Source: Aeromicrobium sp.
Lineage (GTDB): Bacteria; Actinomycetota; Actinomycetes; Propionibacteriales; Nocardioidaceae
Length of the DNA stretch: 47,702 nt
Assembly: GCA_014377785.1 (NCBI GenBank)
Contig: JACMOZ010000150.1
Coordinates: 1 to 47,702, forward strand
Direction of reading: 5' to 3'
Position 1 is the first letter of the stretch. Each line of letters opens with the position of its first letter. Shown piece after piece: positions 3,061-47,702 of this stretch. The position numbers and the translations under genes are program-made. The notes beneath the pieces are model-generated. The model was not told where the DNA came from and searched no databases. It saw only the letters and a list, made by a program, of their open reading frames with translations.

Positions 3061-4100
3061 CCTCATTGACAATCAAGGGCATCACCAAGAGTTTCGGCGC
3101 CGCCACGGTCCTCACCGGAGTCGATCTCGAGGTTCCGACCGGTGGCATCGGCGCCATTCTCGGTCCTTCGGGTTGCGGCAAGACGACCTTGCTGCGCATC
3201 ATCGCCGGCTTCCTCCACCCCGATGGCGGCATCGTGTCGTTCGGGGATCGTACGGTCGTCGGTGACGGGCATTTTGTGTCGCCGCAAAAGCGCCGTGTCG
3301 GTTATGTGCCCCAGGAAGGCGCGTTGTTCCCCCATCTCGATGTGCTGTCCAACATTGCTTTCGGATTGCCGCGTGCCCAACGCCGCGGCGCCCATCTTGC
3401 CGAGCTGCTCGACCTCGTCGAGTTGCCCTCGGCGATCGCCAACCGCTATCCGCATGAATTATCCGGCGGACAGCAGCAACGCGTCGCCCTTGCCCGTGCG
3501 CTGGCGCCCAACCCGGCACTGGTCCTGCTCGACGAACCATTCTCCTCACTCGATGCCGGTTTGCGCGAAAGCACCGGGCGAGCGGTGGCCCGGGTGCTTC
3601 GTACGGCCGGAGCGACCGCGGTGCTGGTGACCCACGACCAGGGCGAGGCGCTGTCGTTGGCCGATCATGTCGCGGTCATGCGCGACGGCGCTATCGCTCA
3701 AGTAGCCACGCCGACGCAGATCTATCTCAATCCGGTGGACCCGGGCGTCGCCGCCTTCGTCGGTGGCGCGGCGATCCTGCCGGCCCAAATCGAGGGCATC
3801 AGCGCGCGTTGCGTGCTCGGCGCTCTCGCAGTTGAGCCTCAGCACGCCCGCGGCGAAGCCCTGGTGTTGATCCGGCCCGAACAGATTGCCATTGGCGCGT
3901 GCGGGTCCGGCGGAGTCGAGGCACGAGTGACTGACGTGAGTTATTACGGCCACGACACGGCGGTTCACCTGACGGTGCTGCCCGCCGGACCCGATGTCAT
4001 CGCTCGTATCGCCGGGCGGGAAGTTCCTGACCGGGGGACCCTCGTGGATCTCAAGGTCCATGGATCGGTCACGGTCTTCGCTCCGGCTGCGCAGTTCTGA
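3057..4100 (+). CDS. Ferric-iron ABC transporter ATP-binding protein (FbpC-like)
   Basis: This 347-residue ATPase energises the importer from the cytoplasm. Visible motifs are the Walker A GPSGCGKTT (about 36-44), the Q-loop YVPQEGALFPH, the signature LSGGQQQRVALARAL (about 137), the Walker B LVLLDEPFSSLD and the H-loop VTHDQGEAL. A C-terminal TOBE-like region (about 240-345) contains the IRPEQI motif common in FbpC/CysA-type ATPases. The start overlaps the permease stop by four bases, so translation is probably coupled. It is the last gene of the operon; the second iron box begins 28 bases after its stop. Confidence 0.88.
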   Translation: MTSLTIKGITKSFGAATVLTGVDLEVPTGGIGAILGPSGCGKTTLLRIIAGFLHPDGGIVSFGDRTVVGDGHFVSPQKRRVGYVPQEGALFPHLDVLSNIAFGLPRAQRRGAHLAELLDLVELPSAIANRYPHELSGGQQQRVALARALAPNPALVLLDEPFSSLDAGLRESTGRAVARVLRTAGATAVLVTHDQGEALSLADHVAVMRDGAIAQVATPTQIYLNPVDPGVAAFVGGAAILPAQIEGISARCVLGALAVEPQHARGEALVLIRPEQIAIGACGSGGVEARVTDVSYYGHDTAVHLTVLPAGPDVIARIAGREVPDRGTLVDLKVHGSVTVFAPAAQF

Positions 4101-13456: not shown

Positions 13457-13541
13457 CGGAGGATAGGGGATTCGAACCCCTGAGAGCTTTCACTCAACCC
13501 GCTTTCCAAGCGAGCGCACTAGGCCACTATGCGAATCCTCC
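13457..13541 (-). tRNA. tRNA-Ser (anticodon GGA)
   Basis: The 85-base minus-strand cloverleaf begins GGAGGAT and ends ATCCTCC plus discriminator G. The anticodon loop TTGGAAA gives GGA, which reads UCC/UCU. A long variable arm (TTGAGTGAAAGCTCTCA region) identifies it as serine. The T arm is GGGGTTCGAATCCCC. CCA is not encoded. Confidence 0.93.
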
Positions 13542-13603
13542 GCGGACGAGGCTACCGGTCGGGTCCCGCTTCGTTTCATTCGGGATCGGCCGTTAGGATT
13601 ATG

Positions 13604-13695
13604 GCAGCCCCTCGCGCGGCGGTATCTCACCCAACTCCCCCAGGGCCGGAAGGCAGCAAGGGTCAGTGAGCTCTACTGGGTGCGCGAGGGGTCCT
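13604..13695 (+). ncRNA. ffs: Signal recognition particle RNA, small bacterial (4.5S-like)
   Basis: The conserved SRP RNA apical sequence GGGCCGGAAGGCAGCAAGGG lies at 13643-13662, with the Ffh-binding GGAA tetraloop and the asymmetric loop. The terminal helix is CCCCTCGCGC (13608-13617) paired with GCGCGAGGGG (13682-13691). A TAGGAT -10 element at 13594-13599 places the start near 13606. The ends are estimated from the helix. In many actinobacteria ffs sits just upstream of dnaX; here about 10.6 kb separates them. Confidence 0.93.
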
Positions 13696-13720
13696 TCAAT
13701 TTCCCCCACCCCGTGATGAG

Positions 13721-47269: not shown

Positions 47270-47304
47270 GGCAAGGGGCTACCAGGGCCGAGACGAAACC
47301 CCAT

Positions 47305-47341
47305 AAAAAAACTCCTGATCCTGCAAAATGCAGGTTCAGGA
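47305..47341 (-). terminator. Strong intrinsic terminator on the minus strand
   Basis: TCCTGATCCTGCA (47313-47325) and TGCAGGTTCAGGA (47329-47341) pair over 13 positions with one mismatch and a 3-base loop. On the minus strand the stem is followed by seven U residues (A-run at 47305-47311). It would end a transcript coming from the right edge of the window. Confidence 0.75.
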
Positions 47342-47345
47342 CTTT

Positions 47346-47685
47346 CCTATGTCCTCAGGCATCACATTGGTCGGGCTACTCCCCCACCTCGCTGCGCTGT
47401 GAGTGTTGTTTCTGGCTGACCTGCGGTTGGCTGGTAGGGCAGGTCGCTTGTTGCTGTCATGGTCGTGACTCATCGCTGCGCTGACCCCTTTGGGGTGTCT
47501 TTGTCGAGACTCGTCCGATTATGGCGGTGGCCGGTGGCCGGCCCTGCCCATCGCATTGGCTTGATTAGAAGCCTGTCCAAACCTCGGGTTGTGACTCATC
47601 ACAGTGGTGCCGCGCGGTGATCTCCTCAGGGTCCGGCCACCGGTCTGACGACCGGTCCCACCCAAATGAGGAAGGAACATCGCCA
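47346..47685 (+). other. Structured non-coding region, candidate left end of an IS110-type element
   Basis: No credible gene lies here. The region holds near-identical 14-mers GGTCGTGACTCATC (47461-47474) and GGTTGTGACTCATC (47587-47600), and an 11-bp direct repeat TCGCTGCGCTG (47389-47399 and 47473-47483). A perfect 11-bp inverted repeat pairs CCGGTGGCCGG (47531-47541) with CCGGCCACCGG (47633-47643), and a hairpin CCGGTC-TGAC-GACCGG lies at 47640-47655. It runs into a gene start at 47686 that resembles IS110 transposases. In IS110 elements the non-coding end before the transposase encodes the bridge RNA; that role here is inference. Confidence 0.4.
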
Positions 47686-47702
47686 ATGCCTATCGTTGCA
47701 GA
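47686..47702 (+). CDS. Start of a gene cut by the window edge, possibly an IS110-family transposase
   Basis: ATG at 47686 follows the strong ribosome site GAGGAAGGA (47669-47677). Only MPIVA plus part of a sixth codon (GA) is visible. Many actinobacterial IS110 transposases begin with a very similar M-x-I-V-A before their DEDD-type RuvC domain. The long structured non-coding region in front also fits that family. Five residues cannot prove it. Confidence 0.4.

Follow-up and report, generated by a model that had tools for sequence, protein, structure and literature searches.

The window analysed here is a 47,702-nt stretch of DNA from an Aeromicrobium sp.; it is the whole of contig C471, one of 519 contigs in a draft genome of 5.0 Mb, and it stops inside a repeated element. 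Its last 17 bases are coding. From an ATG at 47686 they spell five codons, MPIVA, and the first two positions of a sixth (47686..47702, + strand), the start of a predicted IS110 recombinase gene that is cut by the contig end, and a ribosome-binding site, AGGAAGGA, precedes them at 47669..47676 (+). An earlier note on this DNA had pointed to this ATG with its ribosome site and to a gene-free stretch before it; the MPIVA reading was confirmed, and 47346-47685 contains only short overlapping ORFs. Because the contig ends 17 bases into the gene, the window's recombinase cannot be read. It lies beyond the assembly together with the right end of the element, and right-end features are known from relatives. 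Among the predicted starts of 79 relatives, 54 have IVA within the first 10 residues, and two begin with MPIVAE.

A second copy is found on contig C507, which ends at the same base; 300-odd shared bases are 97% identical and the outer flank is different. This looks like the pattern of a multi-copy insertion sequence in a short-read assembly. The sequence common to both contigs begins at 47387, and comparison with relatives places the first base of the element itself at 47398 (TGTGAG...). This left end, which includes the right donor arm TGTGAG (47398..47403, +), is conserved in relatives. Directly outside it lies the left target flank (47389..47397, +), nine bases reading TCGCTGCG-C, which are identical beside the left end in the window and in C507, at different sites. 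From 47399 to the ATG at 47686 there are 287 non-coding bases, a long left end upstream of the gene. An exact-pattern scan of the genome's contigs gave no match, and a plasmid search gave only four weak matches of about 80 bases each. The same genome carries a third element of the lineage (L014, contig C293) with a transposase split over frames, as well as a right-end fragment (L123, contig C34, about 3070-3110) with a different right flank, C-T-CCCCGCCC. The fragment lies near a hairpin and a putative tRNA-like stretch.

To the left, the earlier note had seen a strong minus-strand terminator bounding the region. The hairpin does fold on the minus strand (47301-47345, -23.2 kcal/mol, z -4.8, with a T run after it), although it is absent from the list of a simple terminator scan. 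It belongs to a decayed neighbour rather than to the IS110 element, namely the right-end remnant at 47279..47375 (+), which is 85.7% identical over 98 aligned columns to the element on contig C208. There, a full copy of the neighbouring element (L011, 103-1473) is followed by the same hairpin. Judged by its sequence, this element is presumably IS481-like.

Of 294 genomes searched in the family, 11 carry the same left end, the source genome among them, and IS110 transposases stand 3' of several of these left ends. When five of these proteins were aligned and used as a query, 79 loci in named genomes were retrieved, almost all of them actinobacterial according to the genome titles; with six others they form the set of 85 elements used below. 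Both DEDD_Tnp_IS110 and Transposase_20 domains (PF01548, PF02371) are present in all five aligned proteins. The relatives have their long non-coding region and RNA upstream of the gene, and their right end, after the stop codon, is only about 25 bases long.

The non-coding region has a shared fold. The RNAalifold consensus of 29 aligned sequences contains 58 pairs, of which 38 are changed on both sides, and 93.9% of cells are paired against 83.2% in shuffles, with none of 500 shuffles as high; sliding the helix partners left at most 47% of cells paired. The order of the shared structure is a 5' stem-loop, a long stem with the target-binding loop, and a second stem with the donor-binding loop. 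On the + strand of the window, the 5' stem-loop lies at 47414..47432 (consensus helix 1, 100% of cells paired). The 5' strand of the long stem (47433..47469, consensus helices 2-4) pairs with its 3' strand at 47513..47548 in both the window fold and the consensus, and the apical hairpin of the target-binding loop occupies 47483..47499 (helix 5, five of six pairs changed on both sides). The window's minimum-energy donor region deviates from the consensus in detail. The predicted bridge RNA is about 210-230 nt long and precedes the 17 coding bases at the contig end.

A covariance model built from 28 relatives, with the window excluded, matched the window at 47456..47610 (+) with 110.3 bits and an E value of 3.8e-26. 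It gave four matches in the source genome, the window included, and in a sample of 296 genomes from the class it matched 44, again with the source genome counted. The L014 bridge RNA was matched over its full length (129 bits) despite the frame-split transposase. Rfam at gathering thresholds had no match in the bridge-RNA region; elsewhere in the window it matched an ordinary small SRP RNA (13603-13699, +) and an ordinary tRNA (13457-13541, -), both within 13457-13699.

We are highly confident that the left end of an IS110-group element, with a bridge RNA, occupies 47398-47702. The earlier note had proposed a bridge-RNA region of an IS110-type element here, and this is supported by the shared fold, the held-out covariance model and the guide-flank matching described below, as well as by the IS110 recombinases that stand 3' of the same RNA in relatives. 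Most of the reasons it gave did not hold. Its perfect 11-bp inverted repeat exists (47531-47541 and 47633-47643, enclosing exactly 91 bases), and among 500 sequences simulated from a first-order Markov model of this region, 3 held one of at least 11 bp. As a guide-bearing feature it was rejected: it is absent from the consensus fold, with one part inside the long stem and the other past the donor loop, and a small deletion in the C507 copy leaves 10 bp. The repeat is probably incidental. The two 14-mers, GGTCGTGACTCATC and GGTTGTGACTCATC, are likewise present at 47461 and 47587, 126 bases apart with one mismatch, but they are not guides; they are shoulders of the stems, one next to the left target guide and the other next to the right donor guide.

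The repeat that the note had missed is an 11-base one, TCGCTGCGCTG, at 47389 and again at 47473. By itself it is weak evidence, since a repeated 11-mer of some kind turned up in 18 of 500 sequences from the Markov model of the region. Its second occurrence contains the left target guide (LTG, TCGCTGCGC, 47473..47481, +), which is identical in 9 of 9 bases to the left flank at 47389-47397. Two other assignments were rejected: the internal repeat as a donor guide matching the element's own end, because relatives show a match to the flank, and the conserved GGCTGGCAGGG as a target guide, because it belongs to the fold in every relative.

The match between LTG and flank was examined in 61 of 65 elements by comparing ten left-flank bases with the 5' side of the first loop, at the same offsets for own and foreign flanks. 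Own flanks gave 8.03 of 10 identities, against a permuted mean of 5.07 and a maximum of 5.56 in 2000 permutations. Eight columns stand out (z 5.6-8.1); column 0, the C, showed no covariation (z -0.9), and column -9 was below chance in the same 61. The right target guide (RTG, 47502..47508, +) was compared with right flanks in 50 elements having both ends and a right-guide anchor, among them four that look mis-parsed (L058, L092, L106 and L110). RTG column 1 is an almost invariant C, and columns 2-6 pair in 46, 43, 40, 35 and 36 of the 50, against permuted means of 14.7, 13.5, 13.5, 13.9 and 20.1 (z 5.9-10.4). Whereas this anchored version was strong, an unanchored right-flank test was weak (5.54 vs 4.85, permuted maximum 5.23, n=48); in the unanchored test the left end was absent in 22 and the right end in 20 of the 85 elements. 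None of these counts are independent, because near duplicates are included (L051/L052, L107/L108, G263a/b).

For the window, the RTG predicts a right target C-T-CGACA, and the right end is predicted to read ...AGAAGCGT-C, then T-CGACA. The source genome contains no exact match to the full predicted target, TCGCTGCG-CT-CGAC. A search for the right end with this predicted target gave four one-mismatch matches, compared with six in a reversed control, and one of the four, when examined, was not a right end; none carrying this target came to light. L029, the closest relative of the left end, keeps both ends and the target guides while most of the element is deleted internally; when read by eye, its right guide still pairs with 7 bases of the flanking DNA on the right. 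Five copies in genome G028 have TGTCGAGA-C next to their left end, equal to their guide, which reads TGTCGAGAC, and genome G414 holds four copies.

Joining the flanks of relatives at a single C gives open frames in L062, L079, L086, L098 and L063. We take these frames to resemble conserved transposase codons, of the YNHHR type and the NAPTEAINGRLEHLRG type. Since they look like transposases of other insertion sequences, the relatives' guides seem aimed at other mobile elements. Another guide group (L076, L094, L118, L082, L115 and L119) has an LTG like TGACAAAA and the RTG CCTATG, and, judged by their sequences, these guides seem aimed at right ends of their own family (TTGACAnAC then ATAG). 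L076 and L094 carry a tandem pair of right ends, as would result if an element had entered the end of a cousin.

Further segments follow the ends of the element itself, as tested in 50 elements (48 for the right donor guide). The handshake guide AC (47509..47510, +) pairs with donor GT; its position -2 pairs with the own right end in 47 of 50 relatives (permuted mean 23.1, z 7.9), while position -3 is weak (19/50, z 2.4). The left donor guide (LDG, GATTAGAAGCCTG, 47563..47575, +) has one variable base, position -3, which equals the own right end in 49 of 50 (permuted mean 20.1, z 8.8); position -2 showed no match (4/50, permuted mean 4.9). The right donor guide (RDG, ATCACAG, 47598..47604, +) pairs in the window itself through TCACAG with CTGTGA of the window's own left end. 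Its variable position pairs with the own left end in 47 of 48 relatives (permuted mean 28.6, z 7.5), and position 6 showed no match (6/48). The ends also carry promoter-like boxes: TTGACA (5 or 6 of 6 bases) on the right end lies 17-18 nt upstream of a -10-like box in 52 of 54 relatives, with A2 and T6 of the latter invariant in those 52. The corresponding box in the window is GAGTGT at 47401..47406 (+). Joined right and left ends are predicted to form a promoter for the bridge RNA.

Other copies had been suggested as a way to fix the ends and the core. Comparison with relatives does place the left end, and both junctions share C alone. Position 9 of the left junction is T in 74 of 75 anchored elements (out of 85); the exception, L054, is divergent and probably mis-anchored. 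On the right, the base after C is C, T, A or G in 22, 13, 14 and 10 of 59 elements, and it pairs with the guide in 46 of 49 scored. The right base is other than T in 46 elements, and the left base is still T in 46/46. The lineage therefore behaves as if C alone were shared. A CT core dinucleotide common to donor and target, as in IS621, does not fit these relatives, and a CT core with random mismatch repair was rejected because the left T is kept in all cases of a differing right base. An empty site in G263 reads AGCCAAAT-C-TTTTCTCGACATGG, and another has C-C replacing C-T. We give an even chance to the reading that the core is one base, the C common to donor and target, with strands in effect joined right after it, and that the second base, nearly always T in IS621 cores, can vary in the target, where the right target guide reads it. 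A shifted cut or a one-way resolution of mismatches would each produce the shared-C pattern.

From the observed fold, guide matches, element ends, empty site of a relative and recombinase domains of relatives, a mechanism can be proposed. The element would excise as a circle, in which the right end would provide the -35 box and the left end the -10 box; brought together, the two boxes would make the joined ends a promoter from which the RNA may be transcribed. The RNA folds into the 5' stem-loop and two internal loops, the first of which would pair with the target and the second with the element's own joined ends. The recombinase (DEDD/Transposase_20) would then bind and exchange strands, joining donor and target just after the shared C. 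The window's own recombinase gene, cut by the contig end, is presumably intact.

Because of its strong fold and its place immediately before the gene, the region might be thought an ordinary structured 5' leader of the transposase gene (an attenuator or riboswitch) with no part in target choice. Such a leader has no need to resemble DNA outside the element. In this family, however, two segments of the loop agree with the insertion flanks of the element that carries them, each on a different strand, and vary as those flanks vary; two further segments track the element's ends. For the family the leader is refuted, and we regard it as highly improbable here. Scarcely more credit, though slightly more, goes to the view that the repeat at 47389 and 47473 arose by chance or duplication in a GC-rich stretch and that the window copy is a dead fragment. 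Some repeated 11-mer does occur in a few of the Markov sequences, and fragments do exist, L029 lacking the middle of the element; however, the repeat falls exactly at the guide and flank positions that 61 relatives show as a group, and the second copy, at a different site, has the identical 9-base flank. Least probable of all, to the point of being negligible, is an IS1111-type element with its guide RNA downstream of the transposase. The transposase superfamily is identical, but the relatives' RNA is upstream of the gene, their right end after the stop is only about 25 bases long, and the LTG stands 5' of the RTG, the IS110 order as described in the seekRNA report (PMC11187229). The preferred reading is the IS110-group left end with a bridge RNA.

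This element can be compared with characterised systems. IS621 likewise has its RNA in the left end, with a 5' stem-loop, target loop and donor loop in this order (Durrant et al. 2024, PMC11208160; Hiraizumi et al. 2024, PMC11208158). The likeness extends to left guides, on the 5' side, that pair with bottom strands and right guides that pair with top strands, to a two-base handshake guide beside the right target guide, and to a promoter across the joined ends, which in IS621 is rebuilt by the joined right and left ends (PMC11208158). The two differ at the core. In IS621, CT is present in donor and target, top-strand cleavage follows the T, and the second core T is almost invariant (PMC11208158); here only C is shared, the next base being the donor T on the left and the target's own base on the right. 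ISEc21 and its seekRNA resemble the present case in the upstream non-coding region and the guide order, and ISEc21 is aimed at codons conserved in a different insertion sequence (Siddiquee et al. 2024, PMC11187229), as some relatives seem to be. It differs in host group and target, and its seekRNA is described as shorter (PMC11187229).

In the literature library searched, no paper on bridge RNA and IS110 in Arthrobacter was found, and among the papers listed none had a title or displayed abstract on this lineage or on a one-base core. The name ISAar29 suggests Arthrobacter, the genus of many relatives found here. ISAar29 is an IS110/IS1111 element whose bridge RNA was predicted along with those of five other diverse elements (Extended Data Fig. 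10, PMC11208160). Structural models predicted a bridge RNA in 85.7% of catalogued IS110s, according to the same report (PMC11208160). Bridge RNAs are thus widely known in IS110 elements, and it is the core rule alone that is unusual in this actinobacterial lineage.

In GC-rich actinobacteria, raw sequence allows a bridge RNA to be recognised, and natural guide-to-flank matching can test it without experiments. The junction rule bears on the retargeting range of bridge recombinases and on the fate of mismatched core bases once strands have been exchanged. If it is true, the CT-core limit of IS621 would not apply to the family as a whole, and the recombinases of this lineage could be aimed at any C-N site.
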